Virus record (IMG/VR): IMGVR_UViG_3300042731_001923
Coordinates: 1-44,171 of that record
DNA: 44,171 nt
Source of the DNA: a virus
Direction: 5' to 3' (one strand)
The notes under the pieces are model-generated. The model saw only the letters and a list, made by a program, of their open reading frames with translations, was not told the origin of the DNA and made no database searches. Numbering within the stretch: position 1 is the stretch's first letter; every line of letters starts with the position of its first letter. Shown here piece after piece: positions 2,513 to 36,667 of this stretch. The translations under genes were made by a program, and so were the position numbers.

Positions 2513-3393
2513 GACATATCCCTTTTATCCCGGAAGCCCAAGAACACAGGGAACCTGGGCGCCTCTTTAACACCGACAGGGAAGGATTTGTACTTCACCA
2601 CCTTGCCGAGTAGCGTATCTCGCTGAGCCCACAGTGTAGCACGAAGCTCTGCTGTGAACCCAGTCCCGATCTTGAAGCGAATACCCGTCTCCAGATCCTG
2701 TACGTGCAGTGCACCCAAGTCACCCGCTGGCACCTGCCCCTCCTTGTGGGACGACCTCTCAGTCTGCCCGAGAGCGTTGACCTTGGCCTCGTTCTCGTTG
2801 TGCATGCGCTCCTCAACATCCACCACCGTGGCCTCGCTATCCACGAACCGCTTCAGCTTGAGCAGGATGCCCTGCTTCAGGGTGGATCGACCATGCTTGT
2901 ACTCACCATCCAAGGAACGGACCATCAACCCCTCATACCCCTGATCCAAGAAATGCTGCTCGAATGCCAGCAGTAACTCCTCGCTGCTCACCTGGTAGTG
3001 CTCGACGTAGCTAACACCTGGATGCCCGGCATTGTACACCATGGCCGAGGCGTTGCCAATACGGATATGAAACGGTGTGTGCAGCTGGTTGTACACATCG
3101 AACACATGCAGCACCACGTCCGGCTCTCCCTCGTGCGACATCACAGCTGACGTGGTGATGCTGAAGCAATGGGGATCGGTCGGATCTCCGACGATCAGTT
3201 CCCCATCCAACCCCTCCAGCTCCGGCCTGCCGAACAGCTGCTGGACATGACGGTTCGGTATCGGCTTGAGACTGCGACTCAGCACCTGCCCGTCCTTGAT
3301 GATACAGCGAATGCCGTCCAACTTAGGGCTGACCAGCACCGGGTAGTTGATCGCTCCGGTGTCCTTCACAGCTGCTGCTAGCAATGGCTTCAT
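2509..3393 (-). CDS. ATP-dependent DNA ligase
   Basis: Nick-sealing ligase of 294 residues, shorter than T7 gp1.3 but with the nucleotidyltransferase motifs: motif I KLDGIR with adenylated Lys24, motif III in LDGELIVGD, IIIa in HVFDVY, motif IV EGLMVR, and motif V LLKLKRF. The carboxy part has an OB-fold-like segment ending KYKSFPVGVKEAPRFPVFLGF, typical of T7-like ligases. A GGGAGG ribosome site precedes ATG 3393. It joins Okazaki fragments in the phage replisome together with the neighbouring polymerase and primase-helicase. Confidence 0.93.
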   Translation of the reverse strand: MKPLLAAAVKDTGAINYPVLVSPKLDGIRCIIKDGQVLSRSLKPIPNRHVQQLFGRPELEGLDGELIVGDPTDPHCFSITTSAVMSHEGEPDVVLHVFDVYNQLHTPFHIRIGNASAMVYNAGHPGVSYVEHYQVSSEELLLAFEQHFLDQGYEGLMVRSLDGEYKHGRSTLKQGILLKLKRFVDSEATVVDVEERMHNENEAKVNALGQTERSSHKEGQVPAGDLGALHVQDLETGIRFKIGTGFTAELRATLWAQRDTLLGKVVKYKSFPVGVKEAPRFPVFLGFRDKRDMS

Positions 3394-3557
3394 CCCTGTG
3401 CCTCCCTGCCGTACAGGACGTCATGCAGGATCAGCTTGGCCTCGTGACGGGAGACCGTGCTACCGCAGCGAGTGTTAATCTCTCGCTGCAGCGCGGTGTA
3501 GATGTCACGACCAGCTGGTATTGGTGGTAGGATTAGTGGTTTCTTATCCGCATTCAT
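3390..3557 (-). CDS. Hypothetical 55-residue protein between primase-helicase and ligase
   Basis: A short gene: ATG 3557 shares its A with the TGA of the primase-helicase gene (TGATG), and its own TGA overlaps the ligase start (ATGA). The protein begins MNADKKPLILPPIPAGRDIY, contains one TRCGST segment and is basic. The perfect stop/start overlaps on both sides and the absence of other coding in the gap support it as real. No function recognised. Confidence 0.7.
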   Translation of the reverse strand: MNADKKPLILPPIPAGRDIYTALQREINTRCGSTVSRHEAKLILHDVLYGREAQG

Positions 3558-5284
3558 CAGTACGTTGCTCCTGTCGTGGGGACCGTAGGTTCAGCGAACT
3601 CACCAGTCTCTGGGTTGTACACAATAGGGAAGGCGCCGGTCCTTCCGTGCTCTCTATCTTTCAACACACGGCACGTCACCGTGTTGCGCTCCACCAGATC
3701 CTCTGCCTGAGTGTTGCGCTCAAGCCCGATGATGTAGTGGGACCACTTAATCATCGCCCGGCTGCCGGTGAGCTGTGCCAGCTTAACACGACCACCCTCT
3801 TCGTGCGGTGCCCCTGTCTCCGGCGCATTCAGGTGAGAGCTATAGAACAGCGTGAAGCCGAGAGCTTCGGCCATCGCTGACACCTCACCGAACATACGGT
3901 TCAGCTCATCATTGGTCTTGCTGCTGTCCAAGTGCGCGGTCAGTGCAGAGATGGGGTCCAGGATGATATACTTGCACCCCTCTACCAATACCATGTGCCT
4001 GATGGTTGCCTTGATCGTATCCCAAGTGCGGTCCTCATTGTGATCGTACAGCAGGATCTTGCCATCCAAGTCGTCAATAGCTGCATCCAGCTCAGCCTGA
4101 TCGTACGCCACCTCCGGGTTGTGGAACTGCTTGCCTCTGAACTTACCAGCAATCATCTTCAAGGTCTTCGGGTTCGGCTCCTCCAACATGAAGACACCGA
4201 TCTTCTGCTTATGGCCAATGATGACATGCTCCTCCAAGGAGTGCCAGAAGCTGGTCTTACCAACACCCACGCCAGCGGCAACACCAATAAGCTCGCCTTT
4301 GCGAATGCCGAACGACAGCCGGGTAAGGGTAGGCCAAGGCCAAGACTCTCCCCATTGTGCCTTCTCTCGTGCCTTCTCTCGCAGATCCGCCACCGTCTTG
4401 ATGCCGGAGGGTTTGTAGGTGTCAGCGTTCCACATGATGGCTCGCTTCAGCTCTTGCAGCTTGCCGTCCTTCAGCATGGCGTTGGCATCCTTGCCGGGGA
4501 GCTTGGCGATCTTCACCTTCTCCGGCCACAGCTTGGCCACAGCTTCAGCACTCACCTTGCCCTGCTCATCCTGGTCGAAGATCAGCACTACCTCCTCGAA
4601 CTTGTCGATGAAGGCACGCTGTGCTGCCAGTTCGTTCACCACCTTGGTCGCTGCCACCTCCTTACTCGCACCTCGCACGATGGATACCACGGCAGGCATA
4701 TAGTGCTCGTACTCTGTACCCTTCGACAGGTCTCGTAGCACCTGGAACACAGCCATGGCATCGCACTCACCCTCGGTGATGAACAGCTTCTTGGCGCCAG
4801 TGTGCGCTGCCTGGTACTGGCCGAACAGCTCGACATCGGTCTCAAGCAGAAGCTGGGAGAACCGCTTGTCCTCCACTCGTCGGATCTTGTAACCCACCAT
4901 CTGGCCGCCCTTGTACATGGGGTAGTAGTGCTCGTAAGGTGTCACCCCATCGCCGCCACTTACCGATGCACGCACGTCGAAGTAAGCTGCCGTGTCCTTG
5001 CGGATGCCTCGATCCGTGAGATCCCTCACCTGGTGGGTATTGTAGATCTCCGTGATGCGGGCCAGCTTCTCCTGTGGTGTCATGATCTTGCCAAGGCCGC
5101 CGAACTGCTTCTTCCCTTTCGGTTGTCCGTCCTGCTCTCCGTACGGGTCAGCTACCCATGCCTCACACGACCAACAGTACCCGTTGTGGCTGCCATCTGC
5201 CCGCTCGTACACAGCCAGGGCGTCGCTTGAGCCGCACTCATCATGACCAATGTGCTCTACTAACTGCCCTTGTTCCTGTGTCAT
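3557..5284 (-). CDS. DNA primase-helicase (T7 gp4-like)
   Basis: Bifunctional replicative primase and DnaB/RecA-type helicase, 575 residues. The amino end has a zinc site (probable ligands H14, C17, C37, C40) for template recognition. The TOPRIM core shows EGECD at 171-175 and DQDEQG at 237-242. The helicase has Walker A GVGVGKTS (about 338-345), Walker B ILDP (441-444), and a QLTGSRAMIKWSHYIIGLER segment at about 504-523 carrying the H4/arginine-finger features. It unwinds DNA and makes primers for the adjacent polymerase. ATG 5284 overlaps the upstream stop by 4 nt. Confidence 0.95.
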   Translation of the reverse strand: MTQEQGQLVEHIGHDECGSSDALAVYERADGSHNGYCWSCEAWVADPYGEQDGQPKGKKQFGGLGKIMTPQEKLARITEIYNTHQVRDLTDRGIRKDTAAYFDVRASVSGGDGVTPYEHYYPMYKGGQMVGYKIRRVEDKRFSQLLLETDVELFGQYQAAHTGAKKLFITEGECDAMAVFQVLRDLSKGTEYEHYMPAVVSIVRGASKEVAATKVVNELAAQRAFIDKFEEVVLIFDQDEQGKVSAEAVAKLWPEKVKIAKLPGKDANAMLKDGKLQELKRAIMWNADTYKPSGIKTVADLREKAREKAQWGESWPWPTLTRLSFGIRKGELIGVAAGVGVGKTSFWHSLEEHVIIGHKQKIGVFMLEEPNPKTLKMIAGKFRGKQFHNPEVAYDQAELDAAIDDLDGKILLYDHNEDRTWDTIKATIRHMVLVEGCKYIILDPISALTAHLDSSKTNDELNRMFGEVSAMAEALGFTLFYSSHLNAPETGAPHEEGGRVKLAQLTGSRAMIKWSHYIIGLERNTQAEDLVERNTVTCRVLKDREHGRTGAFPIVYNPETGEFAEPTVPTTGATY

Positions 5285-5448
5285 AAATCCTCGTCATCGG
5301 GGAAGGTGTCATTGTCAAAGTCAAGCGAGCGAAGGGTTAGCTCGTCTGTGTCGAAGTCATCCACGCACTGGTGAAGGGCGGGGCCATCCGTCTCCTCGTC
5401 ATAGTCCACCAGCTGTCCGCACTTCTCACATCTGATACGGGTGCACAT
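5281..5448 (-). CDS. Acidic cysteine-containing 55-residue protein
   Basis: Short gene with ATG 5448 (TAATG overlap with the upstream gene) and TGA overlapping the primase-helicase start (ATGA). The protein has C2, C7, C10 and C29, including a CxxC (CEKC), then a highly acidic tail rich in Asp and Glu. It may bind one zinc ion. Its gapless coupling to both neighbours supports a real gene co-translated with the primase-helicase. Function unknown. Confidence 0.7.
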   Translation of the reverse strand: MCTRIRCEKCGQLVDYDEETDGPALHQCVDDFDTDELTLRSLDFDNDTFPDDEDL

Positions 5449-7854: not shown

Positions 7855-8664
7855 TCACACGTTTTCGCCGCTGCCCAAAACTTGTGGACCCCAAACTTGG
7901 CCGCCCCATTGCTGAGCCATCGCCTCGGCCAACCCACGAGGGGTTAGAGAGCGGAGCTTTTCCCTGTCCTCGCTAGGAGGGAGGTTGTTCTGTCCCGCGT
8001 CTGTCTGGTTCGCCCACCTTGGTTTTAGTGTGCCCCACTCTGCCCCACACTTTTGACACCCGTGCGCCATCTCTTCCGGAGTGCCGGTAGCCCCACACTT
8101 GCACACCATTCGAGGTGGGATATACTTAGTCGGAACCAGTTGTGCCAAGTTGTCAAGGATAAGTCCGGTACTCTTGCTTGCATCCTCCCCATACTCATAT
8201 TGCTGGATCCACTGTGCTTTAGGTAGGTGCGGGAGGTATCGCGGGATCACACCTCGCGGGTTCTCGATACACTTACGCTTAATGGGTAACTTCCACAACG
8301 CATCTACAAAGGCAAGGGCTGCCTGCCTCGCTCGTTGCCTCTCGGCCCCGATCAGTGTTCCCGGCTTCATCTTGCGCGGCTTTCCTTTGATGGTTGGCCT
8401 TTCACTATATGCCCATTCTGCCGCCGTTGTCAAGTATGTGCATGGAGGGTGGGCAATTAGCAAGTCGAAGCTTTCGTAAGGGCCGAGGTAATGCTCACAA
8501 TCAAAGACGGAGCCGCGATAGTGTCCACCGCGCGTGCCTGTCAAAAACTTACCTTCCCCCGGACGCAGGTCAACTGACCACGCTTGGTGCCCTAAGTTGA
8601 TGAACGCATCTCGCACCCGGCCAGAAAATTCACAGGCCACCAACACACGCAGACGCCTACTCAT
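7855..8664 (-). CDS. Putative DNA cytosine methyltransferase-like protein
   Basis: A 269-residue protein of a phage family usually labelled DNA (cytosine) methyltransferase. Motif I-like VLVACEFSGRVRDAF is at residues 7-21, the PC motif is in AHPPCTYLT (about 71-79) and ENP stands where motif VI (ENV) is expected. A zinc-ribbon insert (CKCGATG ... CQKC) follows at about residues 188-210. The degenerate motifs mean methylation activity is not certain. It could modify phage DNA against host restriction. The start overlaps the upstream gene by 8 nt. Confidence 0.75.
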   Translation of the reverse strand: MSRRLRVLVACEFSGRVRDAFINLGHQAWSVDLRPGEGKFLTGTRGGHYRGSVFDCEHYLGPYESFDLLIAHPPCTYLTTAAEWAYSERPTIKGKPRKMKPGTLIGAERQRARQAALAFVDALWKLPIKRKCIENPRGVIPRYLPHLPKAQWIQQYEYGEDASKSTGLILDNLAQLVPTKYIPPRMVCKCGATGTPEEMAHGCQKCGAEWGTLKPRWANQTDAGQNNLPPSEDREKLRSLTPRGLAEAMAQQWGGQVWGPQVLGSGENV

Positions 8665-31710: not shown

Positions 31711-34094
31711 TGCCTTTTCAGAAAACCGTGGCCGATATTCCAACGGCAGTGGACTACTCCGCCACACCAGCCATGCCGGGAAGCGGGGCTAGTATCCAGC
31801 TGGCTGGCGAGGTAGCCGGTGAGACCATCAAAGGTGTGCAGAAGAACCGCCTGGAGAGCGACGTACAGCAGACAGCGGATGTGGCTACTGCCGTGGCCGG
31901 GGCTGTTGCCGAAAAGGGCGCCACGGCTTTCACACCAACGGGAGAGCTGAATACCGAGGGCCTGTCTCCAGACCTGCAACAGCAGATCAGCCGGGTGAAG
32001 GCCAATGCCGGTGACAAGTTCAAGCGGATTGCCAATGCTGTGCGCCAAGGTGCCAAGTCCGAAGCAGCTGCAGCACTGGAGACGGAGGCCACCGTGCGCC
32101 GGTTGGTGTCGCAAACCCCCGGCTTCGGCAGCGAGATTAAGCAGCTGGCCAGAGAGTTGGTCGGCTTCGATCCCAGCGGCTATGCCCTGCGCCAGATCCT
32201 GGGGGTGGATAAGCCCAGGGGCTCAACCAGGCAGACAGCCCAGGAGAAGCGCATCGAGGAAGCCCAGGTCATCCAAGACGGGTTGGCACGGGTGGGGCAG
32301 AATATCCCGCTGGACACCATCTTGGGCAACCTGGCTATCCGGGACCGTGCCAAGATGCAGCAGGAGATCCTGGACGCTGACTTGGATATCGGTACGCACA
32401 ACCTCCGCCAGTGGGCACAGACCAGCTTTGTGGAGGCAGGGCCTGACTTGACAGCCACGCTGCTTAACGTGGCGCAGATGGGCGCCGAGGGCGGAGTCAC
32501 GGAGCCTGCCCAGTACACCAATGCCGTGATCCAGCAGAGGGAGGCCCACAAACAGCTGTTCCGCAGCCAGGTGGCCTCTCGTGGCGGCATGGATGTAGGC
32601 CAAGCCCAGGCTATCGAGGGCCAGATTGACTCCTTGTACGCACCTCTTCTTAAGTCCGTCGAGCAGAATCAGTTGGGCAAGCTGCTGGAAACCAAGCTGG
32701 ATGTCGTCGCCAAGGTGAACCAGCTGTGGGGTAAGCAGGCTACCCCGAAACTTACCCGCATTGTGGATGCCTATGGTCCGCAGGTGGGTGGTCAGATCCT
32801 GGAGATGATGAGCAACATCGCCGACCCGAAGCAGTTCGAGTTGGTATTCTCATTCGACCCTGGCCTGCGGGAGGTCATCCAACAGGGCAAGCTCACCCAG
32901 ACCCAGGCAGCCGATGGTGTGGAGGCCGTGATTAGCAAGGTCATCAGCGGGGAGAACCTGACCGAGGACGACTTACAGTTCCGTAAGATGGCGGAAACCT
33001 TGGTCACCCAGCCGGGCAACAAGGAGACCCGTGAAGCATTCGTGAAGGGGCTGGGGCAGGGCGGTGCACCAGTGCGTGCAGTGTCTATCCTGACCGAGAA
33101 GGTGCACCGCAGCCAGGCGACCCCCGATGAGATCAAGTTCGTCAAGAACCAGTTCGATACCTACGTGGGCACCGCTGCCACGGAGGACGTACCTGGCAAC
33201 TTGGTTGACTCTATCGCAAGGGAGCTGCTGGAGCTGGACGTTCAAGGTATCCAGGGGCAGCTGCAGGCCACGCCTATCACTCAGCGGGGCATCCGTGCTG
33301 CTATGATGGGGCTGGCGCCGAAGGCCACCGGCCAGGTCAAGCTCACTATCCCGTACGATCCCACCCGCCAGGGTACGGCTCTGGACTTCCAGACCACCAG
33401 CATGAAGCGATTGCAACCCTTCTTGGATGCAGCCATCGCCAAGGGCTACGCAGCGGATCTCGGGGTGTCTCCGACTACCTTCGCTCAGGACATGATTGCC
33501 CGAGTGAATGCTCGCATGGATAAGTTGCGGGTAGTGGAGGAGGAGCAGACGAAGGAACTGGTGGAGACCACCAAAGAGCAGAGCATGTACACCAAGATCT
33601 TTGACCCAGCCGCAGTGATGGGCTGGGCATTGCCTGAGAACCGCCCTCAAACAGAGGAGGCCAAGGCTGCTGCTGAAGAGGAGCTGGTGAACACGTACCT
33701 GGAGGTAGTCAAGCTGACCGAGAGCGGGGGTGATCCCAACGCTGTATCCAGCGCAGGGGCATTAGGGGAGATGCAGGTGATGCCGTCAACTGCAACAGAC
33801 AAGTCGCTCATTGCGAGAGGCTTGACCCTGGCTAAGAAGAACCCAGACGGCACGTTCGATAAGGAGGATCTAGCACGGTTCGGGCGGGACTACTTCAAGC
33901 TTCAGCTGAAAGACTTCAGTGGGGATTTTGAGGCAGCACTGATCGCGTACAATGCTGGACCAGGTAACGCGAAGAAGTGGCTGGCAGCGGGTAGGGATTA
34001 CTCAGTATTGCCACGTCGGCAGGAAACTGAACCCTATGTGCGCCGGGCAATGAAACACCTGGCCGAATTAACGAAGAGCAAGCGAGGTGAGTAA
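31710..34094 (+). CDS. Internal virion protein with C-terminal lytic transglycosylase domain
   Basis: A 794-residue ejection protein. Residues 1-650 are helical. The carboxy part (about 665-780) is an SLT/lysozyme-like domain with the probable catalytic E671 in LTESGG, then AVSSAGALGEMQVMPSTA and AYNAGPGNAKKWL, the classic family 1 motifs. It would open peptidoglycan for the tail on entry. In T7 gp16 the domain is amino-terminal, so the order is reversed here. ATG 31710 shares its A with the previous stop and has GGAG 8 nt upstream. Confidence 0.9.
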   Translation: MPFQKTVADIPTAVDYSATPAMPGSGASIQLAGEVAGETIKGVQKNRLESDVQQTADVATAVAGAVAEKGATAFTPTGELNTEGLSPDLQQQISRVKANAGDKFKRIANAVRQGAKSEAAAALETEATVRRLVSQTPGFGSEIKQLARELVGFDPSGYALRQILGVDKPRGSTRQTAQEKRIEEAQVIQDGLARVGQNIPLDTILGNLAIRDRAKMQQEILDADLDIGTHNLRQWAQTSFVEAGPDLTATLLNVAQMGAEGGVTEPAQYTNAVIQQREAHKQLFRSQVASRGGMDVGQAQAIEGQIDSLYAPLLKSVEQNQLGKLLETKLDVVAKVNQLWGKQATPKLTRIVDAYGPQVGGQILEMMSNIADPKQFELVFSFDPGLREVIQQGKLTQTQAADGVEAVISKVISGENLTEDDLQFRKMAETLVTQPGNKETREAFVKGLGQGGAPVRAVSILTEKVHRSQATPDEIKFVKNQFDTYVGTAATEDVPGNLVDSIARELLELDVQGIQGQLQATPITQRGIRAAMMGLAPKATGQVKLTIPYDPTRQGTALDFQTTSMKRLQPFLDAAIAKGYAADLGVSPTTFAQDMIARVNARMDKLRVVEEEQTKELVETTKEQSMYTKIFDPAAVMGWALPENRPQTEEAKAAAEEELVNTYLEVVKLTESGGDPNAVSSAGALGEMQVMPSTATDKSLIARGLTLAKKNPDGTFDKEDLARFGRDYFKLQLKDFSGDFEAALIAYNAGPGNAKKWLAAGRDYSVLPRRQETEPYVRRAMKHLAELTKSKRGE

Positions 34095-34095
34095 G

Positions 34096-34320
34096 ATGGG
34101 CCATCCGGTATTGGAGCATGTGCCGCAAACTGCAAAGGTGGCGGGAGAGGCGCTGTCGCTGTCATTTATTGGCGGGGTATTCCTGGAATGGTTGCCGCCG
34201 ATAGCTGCGGGAGTAGCCATTGTGTGGCACATGCTGCTGATATACGACTGGACGTGTAAGAAGATCCAGGAACGGAGGAAGTTTGGGAGAAGGGAAGAAG
34301 ATAACAAGAAAAAGGAATAG
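34096..34320 (+). CDS. Small membrane protein, putative holin
   Basis: A 74-residue protein with one or two hydrophobic segments (ALSLSFIGGVFLEWLPPIAA, GVAIVWHMLLIYDW) and a strongly basic, charged tail (CKKIQERRKFGRREEDNKKK), the layout of small phage holins. It is the last late gene before the terminator, as T7 holin is late. GAGG lies 8 nt before ATG 34096. Holin function is inference from topology and position. Confidence 0.6.
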   Translation: MGHPVLEHVPQTAKVAGEALSLSFIGGVFLEWLPPIAAGVAIVWHMLLIYDWTCKKIQERRKFGRREEDNKKKE

Positions 34321-34345
34321 CGAGGGGATCACTCCCGAGCAGCCA

Positions 34346-34455
34346 ACATAACAATAACAGGCTGGTTGCCCCCTCGCCACTCCCACGCCCCGGCTCAGTC
34401 CGGGGTTTCTTTTGCCCGGCTGTAGCAGCCTCCTTCCGTTTAATATCTGTTATAT
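34346..34455 (-). repeat. attC-like site 0, contains the terminator
   Basis: Read leftward, the ATATAAC box (34455-34449) contains the stop codon of the first cassette ORF. A GTTATGT box (34352-34346) closes the site. The arms next to the boxes (AACAATAACAGG and CAGATATTAAACGG read outward) are only partly complementary. Length 110 nt is within the known attC range. It is the weakest of the complete sites. Confidence 0.45.
34388..34413 (+). terminator. Strong intrinsic terminator of the late operon
   Basis: CCCCGG-CTCAGT-CCGGGG stem (34388-34405) followed by TTTCTTTT. It lies between the convergent late (rightward) and leftward transcription units. A longer inverted pair, CGAGGGG (34321-34327) and CCCCTCG (34370-34376), precedes it. 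Confidence 0.9.
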
Positions 34456-34650
34456 TTCTCTTACGCCCTTGCTGGCTCGTTTCGCCTCTTCTTGCAAATT
34501 CTCATAGGCAAGTTCAAGCGCTTCCTCATAGCTAACCCCGTAATCCTTCTCGGCATTGCGGCGCAATTGATCGGGGGTCTGATACCCCTTAGCGATTCTT
34601 TTCAGGGTATCTCTCATCCGGTTAAACTGTTCTTTCTGCTTTGGTGTCAT
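34450..34650 (-). CDS. Cassette ORF 1, helical hypothetical protein
   Basis: A 66-residue protein, charged and helical (MTPKQKEQFNRMRDTLKRIA). ATG 34650 has GGAGG 6 nt upstream; the longer frame to 34731 only translates the attC-like site and is discarded. The TAA stop lies in an ATATAAC box. No family recognised, as is common for integron cassette genes. Confidence 0.7.
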   Translation of the reverse strand: MTPKQKEQFNRMRDTLKRIAKGYQTPDQLRRNAEKDYGVSYEEALELAYENLQEEAKRASKGVREI

Positions 34651-34664
34651 CATTAGCCTCCGAA

Positions 34665-34727
34665 GTATAACAATGCAATTAACAGCGATCCTCGCTGCGC
34701 TCGGCCGCGTTATCGCAGCCGTTATGC
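34665..34727 (-). repeat. attC-like site 1
   Basis: A 63-nt imperfect inverted repeat. Read leftward, GCATAAC (34727-34721) and GTATAAC (complement of the GTTATAC box, 34671-34665) form the outer boxes. The inner arms TGCGATAACGCG and CGCTGTTAATTGCA pair with single unpaired bases, as attC extrahelical bases do. The stop of the upstream ORF is within the first box. Confidence 0.7.
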
Positions 34728-35039
34728 GCACAAATTAGTATGGTAATTTCTATCGAAGTCATACATTGCATCGCTCGGCGATTTTCCAAAGCCAGCAATG
34801 CCGTCCTGTAAGTTTTCACCATAAAGTGCGCACCATTTATCGCCATCAATTTTCAAAGTAGGCCGCAACAATACGCAGGGCCGCATCTGCTCTGCGGCGG
34901 CTTCTTTATATTCCGCCATAGCCTGCTCTACATAGTGGGTCAAGTTCATATCTCGGATCGCCGAGCGAATTGCATCATCAACATCACCGCCGGAAATCTT
35001 ACTTCTTGTTGCGTCATATATAGCTTGGTAACTACCCAT
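34722..35039 (-). CDS. Cassette ORF 2, conserved hypothetical protein
   Basis: A 105-residue protein starting MGSYQAIYDATRSKISGGDV and with DKWCALYGENLQDGIAGFGK near the end. I recall this Y-Q-x-IYDA-x-RS-x-IS ... W-CALYG-x-NLQDG-x-AGFG pattern from uncharacterised proteobacterial, phage and cassette proteins. ATG 35039 has GGAGG 6 nt upstream. TAA lies inside a GCATAAC box. Function unknown. Confidence 0.75.
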   Translation of the reverse strand: MGSYQAIYDATRSKISGGDVDDAIRSAIRDMNLTHYVEQAMAEYKEAAAEQMRPCVLLRPTLKIDGDKWCALYGENLQDGIAGFGKSPSDAMYDFDRNYHTNLCA

Positions 35040-35054
35040 ATTTGTCCTCCAGCC

Positions 35055-35117
35055 GCATAACAACGGCATTAAAATTGACCTTCGCTACGCTGCGGCAATT
35101 TATGCCGAGCGTTATCC
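35055..35117 (-). repeat. attC-like site 2 (best copy)
   Basis: A 63-nt inverted repeat. Outer boxes, read leftward, are GGATAAC (35117-35111) and GTTATGC (35061-35055). Inner arms CGGCATAAATTG and CAATTTTAATGCCG pair almost perfectly with unpaired bases on one side. The centre CCGCAGCGTAGCGAAGG forms the terminal structure. This is the full R''-L''-L'-R' attC plan. Confidence 0.78.
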
Positions 35118-35327
35118 ACCAAATACTTTTCGCCACACCGCTCTACGCCACATTCTTGTATCTTGCTCAACTTCATACCTAATTTCTTCCGGTGCATTTT
35201 TAGAACATGTTTGCGGCTTCCAGCGCATATCCCGCACAGCGCGTCGTAGGCGTATCAGTATTACCACAAACAGAAACAAACCCCCTGATGCTAGAAGTAA
35301 TATATTGGATAACAAATCATTAAACAT
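35112..35327 (-). CDS. Cassette ORF 3, small membrane protein
   Basis: A 71-residue protein with one transmembrane helix (LLSNILLLASGGLFLFVVIL), then a basic and Trp-containing tail. ATG 35327 follows GAGG at 8 nt and lies within attC-like site 3. The TAA stop lies in a GGATAAC box. Function unknown. Confidence 0.65.
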   Translation of the reverse strand: MFNDLLSNILLLASGGLFLFVVILIRLRRAVRDMRWKPQTCSKNAPEEIRYEVEQDTRMWRRAVWRKVFGG

Positions 35328-35380
35328 CGCTCGTTCCTCGCTGCGACCGCTGACGCGGCGCGTTAATTCAATCGTTAAAG
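35307..35380 (-). repeat. attC-like site 3
   Basis: A 74-nt site. Read leftward, CTTTAAC (35380-35374) and GTTATCC (35313-35307) are the boxes; inner arms GATTGAATTAACGCG and GCGATGTTTAATGATTT are partly complementary. The centre CGCAGCGAGGA resembles those of sites 1 and 2. The downstream ORF starts inside the site. Confidence 0.55.
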
Positions 35381-35527
35381 GGCAATAAAGCGCCCTGCTA
35401 TCCCGCAAGTCCGTAGAATCGCGGCATCGGTGTCACCGTAGGCAACCAGCACAGAAGGCGCGCCAGCATTTGCAGCCGCCCTTGTTCCGTCAACGTGGTG
35501 GAAGTGCAGTCGCCCCTCAATTAATCG
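35375..35527 (-). pseudogene. Start-less C-terminal gene fragment in a cassette position
   Basis: An open frame of 50 residues (ends ILRTCGIAGRFIAL) begins immediately after the stop of the upstream gene and has no ATG or early GTG/TTG start. It contains EGRLHFHHVDGTRAAANAGA and PSVLVAYGDTDAA. The well-formed amino acid pattern suggests the carboxy end of a larger protein that I do not recognise. It ends with TAA in a CTTTAAC box, like the neighbouring cassette ORFs. Confidence 0.5.
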
Positions 35528-35533
35528 TTATGC
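35527..35533 (-). repeat. attC-type half box at the array edge
   Basis: GCATAAC read leftward, containing the TAA of the upstream 107-residue gene, followed by GATTAATTGAGG, similar to GATTGAATTAAC of site 3. I could not find a convincing partner arm, so this may be a recombination scar or the array boundary. Confidence 0.4.
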
Positions 35534-35851
35534 GCTACCAGCACCCGTAGTTCGTGACATCCGTCTTGCCATTGCCCGTAACTGGTGAACCAGCCTCTTC
35601 TGGGCAGTCACAGCTTGGCGCCGGGTGAAGTATACGTGATCACCGCTGGCCGCCAGTATGCCCCTCACCTTGGTCTCTGGCACGTAAAGAACCAGCCCGT
35701 ACTCGGTAGAGGCACGGTTCGTTCCTCGCTTGCTGGTGATAAACACACGTCCCAGCTCTACAGCTGGCCCGATTGCCGTGTTCACTACCGAGATCGCATA
35801 CAGGCTCATGCCCTGCCGGACATTGTCCGGGCTTGGTCGCCTCTTACTCAT
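35528..35851 (-). CDS. Basic hypothetical protein at the array edge
   Basis: A 107-residue basic protein beginning MSKRRPSPDNVRQGMSLYAI. ATG 35851 overlaps the previous stop (ATGA), so it is translated in the leftward operon; the longer frame to 35947 is not needed. It includes VRGILAASGDHVYFTRRQAV. Its stop lies in the GCATAAC box at the edge of the cassette array. No family recognised. Confidence 0.7.
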   Translation of the reverse strand: MSKRRPSPDNVRQGMSLYAISVVNTAIGPAVELGRVFITSKRGTNRASTEYGLVLYVPETKVRGILAASGDHVYFTRRQAVTAQKRLVHQLRAMARRMSRTTGAGSA

Positions 35852-36117
35852 GTCTTTGCTCCCAGAATTTTCTCGATCTTCATTGAGATCGTCGCCCCAT
35901 ACAAGGACCCGCTCACTGTGCCTATCACATACGGGATCAGCAACCACAGGGACAGCTCCGCCACAACCAGCTCCCTCATGGTGAGGAACCAGATCCCGTT
36001 ACTCAGCACTGCACATGTCGCATGGTAGCCCATGTGGTCCCGGTTGCGAGATCTAGAGGTCATGGTGAAGGCTATGTTCTGCACGAATGCCATCGCCAAC
36101 ACTAATAGCCAGGTCAT
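35848..36117 (-). CDS. Three-helix membrane protein, conserved in phages
   Basis: An 89-residue membrane protein, MTWLLVLAMAFVQNIAFTMT then SRSRNRD, a second helix after HATCAVLSNGIWF and a third in LWLLIPYVIGTVSGSLYGAT. The W-x-LMLA-x-x-FVQN-x-AFT-x-x-SRSRN opening is familiar from many phage genomes, with no proven function; it could be a holin or antiholin. Overlaps both neighbours by 4 nt. Confidence 0.75.
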   Translation of the reverse strand: MTWLLVLAMAFVQNIAFTMTSRSRNRDHMGYHATCAVLSNGIWFLTMRELVVAELSLWLLIPYVIGTVSGSLYGATISMKIEKILGAKT

Positions 36118-36440
36118 ATACCGTCTCCTAAGAACTGTGCCAGCAGCCCGGCGAACATCTCCATCATCGTGGAGTGCTGCCGGTGGTCATAGACAAAGAT
36201 GTAGTCGTCTCCCACATCCGGCCTACGGAACCTGACCAATGCCTCGATGGCGACTATCTCCATCAGCTCGTGGCACAGGATCATGAGCGCGACCCTCTCC
36301 CCGCACTTTGTGCCGATTGTCAGCGTACCTTTGCCAGGCCCCTCTCCGTCATAGCTAAAGCTGCCCTCACAGGAAGTAGCGTCCCACCTCACAGTGAACA
36401 GCGTACTATTAACTTGTAGCTTGCGTAGTCTCTTTAGCAT
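36114..36440 (-). CDS. Zincin-like hypothetical protein with HELME
   Basis: A 108-residue protein. ATG 36440 has a GGAGGGAGGGG site. The layout resembles the HExxH protein at 11553: beta strands, then CHELMEIVAIEAL, then a helix ending TMMEMFAGLLAQFLG. The second His of HExxH is Glu (HELME), so it is either a degenerate zincin or a variant with a different ligand. Also contains YDHRQHST. Function unknown. Confidence 0.65.
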   Translation of the reverse strand: MLKRLRKLQVNSTLFTVRWDATSCEGSFSYDGEGPGKGTLTIGTKCGERVALMILCHELMEIVAIEALVRFRRPDVGDDYIFVYDHRQHSTMMEMFAGLLAQFLGDGI

Positions 36441-36667
36441 CCCCTCCCTCCTGCGATACACGCCCTGTGTACCTCGCTGTGCATCTTCTTGCCCCACTCC
36501 AATTGATGCGGTGTTGCGACCTCCGTCTTGAAGTCGATGTCACCCTTGGGCGTGTCAGCAGTCAAGGCCAACTTGATGGCGGCCTCGGCCTGCTTTTCGG
36601 AGACAGCTTCGACTAGCCTGCCTCCCCTCCACTTCCCTCCGTACCTCCACATTACATAGTAGATCAT
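36434..36667 (-). CDS. Hypothetical protein
   Basis: A 77-residue protein (MIYYVMWRYGGKWRGGRLVE) with an alpha/beta pattern (VSEKQAEAAIKLAL). ATG 36667 is coupled to the 31-residue gene upstream (TGATG); a GTG at 36679 with a GGAG is an alternative start. No family recognised. Confidence 0.65.
   Translation of the reverse strand: MIYYVMWRYGGKWRGGRLVEAVSEKQAEAAIKLALTADTPKGDIDFKTEVATPHQLEWGKKMHSEVHRACIAGGRGC

Follow-up and report, generated by a model that had tools for sequence, protein, structure and literature searches.

An array of integron-type gene cassettes in an apparently lytic podophage, with genes antisense to their attC sites

The DNA analysed here (the window, a virus record of 44,171 bases) carries a cluster of attC sites without an integron integrase (CALIN), in which the cassette genes are read from the strand opposite to that expected from bacterial integrons. 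The presence of a CALIN-type cassette array in this phage is supported by an attC covariance model, by clean negative controls and by gene content. The full explanation that we favour, and consider likely, is that the cassettes entered at G|TT through a host integrase and that their genes were kept along the leftward phage transcript.

attC sites and cassettes in the window

The window encodes a DNA polymerase, a primase-helicase, a ligase and an exonuclease, together with a terminase, a head-tail adaptor, a capsid protein and internal virion proteins. The virus is apparently a lytic podophage, distant kin of Vibrio phage ICP2; its terminase shares about 39% identity with the terminases of ICP2 and its relatives. 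Two transcription units converge near 34.4 kb, and the array lies at this convergent end, as a preliminary description of the DNA had stated. The G+C content of the array is 48.7%, compared with 55.8% for the genome, which places it among the lowest 1.7% of windows. An Rfam scan gave nothing at gathering scores, and a blastn search of the locus against phages gave no match. A further DNA methyltransferase of this phage (PHROG 757) is encoded outside the array, at 7855-8664 on the − strand.

To search for attC sites we used two home-made covariance models. R1 was built from 34 attC sites of known orientation, taken from Pseudomonadaceae integrons (found through IntI), a Shewanella and a Vibrio prophage, and attCaadA7 in what we take to be its sequence; R2 was built from 126 sites. 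Among the hits used to build R2, every strand call matched the direction of the array. The features of the locus are as follows.

34387-34406, + strand: terminator-like hairpin of the rightward unit (consensus match only)
34449-34455, + strand: left boundary box GTTATAT, where cassette 1 begins (G|TTATAT); positioned by script, no complete attC by the model
34450-34650, − strand: cassette 1 gene, 66 aa, with GGAGG as ribosome site and a TAA stop that lies within the left boundary box
34665-34727, + strand: attC1, complete, 63 nt; R'' GTATAAC, R' GTTATGC at 34721-34727
34722-35039, − strand: cassette 2 gene, 105 aa, with GGAGG as ribosome site and a TAA stop that lies within the R' box of attC1
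35055-35117, + strand: attC2, complete, 63 nt; R'' GCATAAC, R' GTTATCC at 35111-35117
35112-35327, − strand: cassette 3 gene, 71 aa; predicted membrane helix; start inside attC3, stop in the attC2 R' box
35307-35380, + strand: attC3, complete with imperfect arms, 74 nt; R' GTTAAAG at 35374-35380
35375-35527, − strand: cassette 4 remnant, a phage adenine methyltransferase reduced to its final 49 codons, ending in a TAA within the attC3 R' box
35512-35533, + strand: right half (L'-R', GCCCCTCAATTAATC-GTTATGC) of a fourth attC; its sequence resembles the right halves of known attC sites
35528-35947, − strand: phage gene of up to 139 aa adjoining the array; stop TAA is part of the right boundary box
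Cassette spans, each opening with the TT of an R' box and closing with the G of the following one: 34450-34721, 34722-35111 and 35112-35374; deleted remnant, 35375-35527

Exactly three matches with E of at most 10 were found in the 44-kb window, all on the + strand, all in the array and within 716 bases. With R1 and R2, respectively, attC1 scored 26.1 bits (E 7.5e-4) and 28.8 bits (E 8.8e-5), attC2 17.9 bits and 27.8 bits (E 1.5e-4 with R2), and attC3 14.2 bits (E 0.52) and 31.6 bits (E 1.9e-5). As a negative control, 43 related viral loci (456 kb) gave no attC-model match reaching E 10. As a positive control, the model was run on two phages of Qi et al. 2023 and recovered three sites from TJE1, whose sites were part of the R2 input, and five from MW202573, whose sites were not. 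The models were calibrated only briefly and their E-values are rough, but the contrast between the array and elsewhere is clear despite this.

The preliminary description had proposed four inverted repeats of 63, 63, 74 and about 110 nt as attC sites. The first three are the model matches reported above. The longest, at 34346-34456, was rejected as an attC: it has no model match, its centre is the terminator-like hairpin, and its right end alone (GTTATAT) is R'-like. On folding, attC2 forms the canonical hairpin on the − strand (z −2.5). The lowest-energy fold of attC1 is not canonical and attC3 folds no better than its shuffles, so some sites in the array may be inactive. attC1 and attC2 retain all boxes, the spacer and the extrahelical bases.

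The integron integrase model TIGR02249 had no match in the whole record, which bears out the earlier statement that no integrase gene is visible, and no sigma-70-type promoter match was found in 34000-36600. The locus is thus not a complete integron, which would comprise intI, attI and a cassette promoter. A CALIN is recognized by at least two covariance-model attC sites within 3-4 kb and no integron integrase gene nearby; here three sites lie within 716 bases (E 2e-5 to 1.5e-4) with no such gene, and we therefore classify the locus as a CALIN. The attC sites are of uniform polarity and the cassettes are delimited by G|TT, as in a cassette array.

Proteins 61% and 73% identical to that of cassette 1 are encoded in viral contigs L113 and L114. 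Cassette 2 has relatives in Paraburkholderia, Stutzerimonas and phages, and a distant one adjoins an attC array in contig L223 (a tRNA suspected by eye in that contig was not found by ARAGORN). A homologue search with the cassette 3 gene found none. The cassette 4 remnant is 67% identical to the adenine methyltransferase of Pseudomonas phage 8P (E 1e-14) and has no upstream start codon. The array is closed by the half-site at 35512-35533, where the left half is missing and the model has no match; the 139-aa phage gene has its stop codon in the R' box of this half-site, and tblastn found no homologue of the gene in phages. Both remnants would be accounted for by a single deletion that took the left half of the attC along with the 5' part of the methyltransferase gene. 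The cargo of the array probably consists of small accessory or counter-defence functions.

Gene polarity in the window and in other arrays

We found attC1-3 on the + strand and the cassette genes on the − strand. This arrangement reverses that of bacterial cassettes, so that the genes are not read along the attC top strand. In this respect the earlier statement that the genes are laid out as in integron cassettes does not hold, since bacterial cassette genes are sense to attC and these are antisense. In an unfiltered scan, attC1 and attC2 scored 15.2 and 11.3 bits on the + strand versus about 4-5 bits on the − strand, and we discarded the assignment of the attC top strand to the − strand that the open reading frames had suggested; attC3 gave no full-length match on either strand. 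Coding on the − strand is backed by relatives in that frame for genes 1, 2 and 4. Ribosome sites had been described just after the boxes: GGAGG does lie just past attC1 and attC2 for genes 1 and 2, and gene 3 starts inside attC3. The stops were placed correctly, each cassette gene's TAA lying in an R' or boundary box. This TAA is the reverse complement of the TTA in the first bases of the cassette; because the stop is supplied by the cassette's own TTA, each of these mirror cassettes is self-contained. Overall, the preliminary observation is partly confirmed and its interpretation partly supported.

The same mirror layout was seen in other viruses. Two pattern scans of IMG/VR, followed by the attC model, yielded dozens of viral contigs with arrays. 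By a simple ORF count that leaves out duplicate contigs and one contig with an integrase, 51 viral cassettes were antisense, 19 sense and 24 undecided, compared with 9 antisense and 71 sense among bacterial integron cassettes, taken from Pseudomonadaceae, Shewanella and Vibrio only (Fisher p 4e-15 for 51:19 against 9:71). A stricter gene call, with duplicates still included, gave 75:28 for viruses versus 3:63 for bacteria. Counted per contig, 25 viral arrays were antisense and 13 sense, against 0 and 17 in bacteria; the viral excess over 50:50 (25:13, p 0.07) is only suggestive. Flanking genes alone gave 26 opposite and 11 same (p 0.02), and directions were mixed within a contig in one of 44. 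The mirror layout thus predominates in viral attC arrays. Given the contig-level p of 0.07, we read these counts cautiously, as suggesting that phage arrays track phage transcription, freed from the bacterial polarity rule.

Among phages of the earlier study, the annotated genes over the PH101 array are on the − strand and its attC sites on the + strand, MW202573 is also mirror, and TJE1 has the usual polarity. Elsewhere, Pfam matches back the coding strand of antisense cassettes (N6_N4 methylases, C5 methylase, MT-A70, Mom, SSB and DUF1643). DNA-modification genes in antisense cassettes lie at L237 3903-4595, L231 12923-13576, L273 5036-5563, L279 3278-3739 and L124 5360-6352; the products at these loci are N6_N4 methylases, Mom, MT-A70 and C5 methylase. 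An integron integrase was found in one of the 47 viral records with attC arrays (L263, record G186, IntI at 4499-5428). Sample 3300021512 holds three different phage contigs (L144/L147/L264, L260 and L216), each with an attC array.

Cassette exchange and the probable origin of the array

Two contigs, L124 and L262, represent one phage, with 100% identity over 6,091 bp and 99% over 123 bp on the other side. At the same locus, L124 (5180-6520) carries a C5 methyltransferase cassette and L262 (100-1760) several different cassettes and attC sites. The right flank that they share begins at the R' box (GGCG|TTAC); no box marks the left junction. Because the two differ in cassettes with the right junction at the R' box, at least one phage swaps its array content according to the integron rule, and we infer the same for the window array. 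A methyltransferase gene and the half of its attC that adjoins it are common to MW202573 and L164, with 74% identity.

Over 72 nt, attC3 shares 85% identity with an attC of L153, a phage fragment with portal and terminase genes. As proof of cassette exchange this match is weakened, since a single source integron has similar attC sites next to its various genes. The L153 gene at 573-1067 and the window gene at 35112-35327 are unrelated and both start at an identically placed ATG, preceded by GAGG, within almost the same attC. Mirror cassettes may take their ribosome site and start codon from attC. In the PH101 array (L163), 1531-1619 is repeated at 2939-3027 and 2032-2144 at 3433-3546, as if a cassette had been copied.

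For the window phage itself, near relatives sought in IMG/VR with the terminase and an internal virion protein were not found, and a capsid search returned a single relative, L070 (79% capsid identity), which stops short of the locus. As no relative spanning the array locus was found by these searches or with the 139-aa gene, no variation is shown at the window array.

Several other origins were weighed. The array could be a relic, in which genuine attC cassettes acquired long ago have decayed sites and are now inherited as an ordinary block of phage genes. The incomplete site at either end, the deletion that left only a remnant of cassette 4 and the poor folding of attC3 all fit this history; it is at odds with the intact boxes, spacer and extrahelical bases of attC1 and attC2, and we regard it as possible though doubtful. 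Alternatively, only attC sequences may have spread, inserting between resident phage genes that never travelled. The genes are indeed phage-type genes, with relatives that lie away from attC arrays in phages and prophages, and in L153 a sequence resembling attC3 adjoins a different gene. However, the genes fill the space from box to box and stop in the box, the array G+C is unlike that of the phage, MW202573 and L164 have in common a gene plus the adjoining attC half, and another phage gains or loses genes with a junction at the R' box; we therefore consider this account improbable.

The prevalence of mirror polarity in phage arrays, and the finding of IntI in only 1 of 47 viral array records, could point instead to a phage-specific recombination system that merely resembles attC and uses another recombinase. 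Such a system seems very improbable, as the sites have the features of bacterial attC and as attC sites of PH101, which also has a mirror array, are substrates of IntI1 (PMC9892861). Least credible are chance palindromes or ordinary terminators between fixed phage genes: terminator-like hairpins are present in the region, but three model matches within 716 bases, with none elsewhere in 500 kb, refute this to a good degree.

Under the explanation that we favour, an integron integrase encoded by the infected host would act in trans and bring cassettes in by recombination at G|TT. The substrate would be the folded bottom (−) strand of attC, and the partner a phage GTT or an attC already present. 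Two observations make delivery by a host integrase plausible: phage attC sites are substrates of IntI1, and another phage swaps cassettes at the R' box. The first entry would have been at the GTT overlapping the stop codon of the 139-aa gene, with a predicted empty site of ..TTTAATATCTG|TTATGCGCTACC..; the cassette junctions of the array would lie at 34449/34450, 34721/34722, 35111/35112, 35374/35375 and 35527/35528. Insertion at the convergent end of the map would be harmless, and genes pointing along the leftward phage transcript would be retained, this transcript expressing them without an integron promoter. We speculate that in mirror arrays the non-template strand of transcription would be the recombinogenic attC strand, so that phage transcription would expose it.

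Relation to known systems and significance

Cassettes can insert at secondary sites outside integrons (attG). The proposed entry resembles attG insertion in using a GTT outside an integron, here presumably at a phage-gene stop codon; it differs in that the target is a phage genome and the empty site is predicted rather than observed. Chromosomal and class 1 integron arrays (Pseudomonadaceae, Shewanella, Vibrio) share with the window the attC boxes, spacer, extrahelical bases and box-to-box geometry, whereas the window array has no intI, attI or cassette promoter, and its genes are antisense where theirs are sense.

Phage CALINs, their IntI1 activity and their methyltransferases are already known from TJE1, PH101, P12002L and MW202573 (Qi et al. 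2023, PMC9892861), and IntI1 recombines PH101 attC sites (two assayed) with preference for the bottom strand (PMC9892861). Like those arrays, the window array is an attC cluster without integrase in a virulent phage, with small genes and a DNA methyltransferase; it differs from them in phage group and in genes. The text of PMC9892861 does not mention opposite gene and attC polarity, although PH101 and MW202573 show it here, and we found no report of antisense polarity in phage arrays in the literature searched, whose scope excluded many subscription journals and all bioRxiv preprints. Phage CALINs as such being known, the novelty lies in the inverted polarity, which seems undescribed.

How integron cassettes are born, and why their genes and attC sites have one polarity, are open questions in bacteria. 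If phage arrays are systematically opposite, polarity would be set by expression (cassette promoter versus phage transcript) or would reflect a different birth route, and the bacterial and phage cases could be compared directly. Phages would then be both a reservoir and a vehicle of cassettes, with anti-restriction genes swapped by a recombinase that phages do not encode. We tentatively suggest that phages share a pool of mirror cassettes of their own (attC inverted relative to the gene, stop supplied by the R' box), swapped between unrelated phages via host integrases, rich in DNA-modification and counter-defence genes and with its own route of cassette birth. If this is true, the mirror-cassette pool would be the phage-side counterpart of bacterial integrons as defence libraries.
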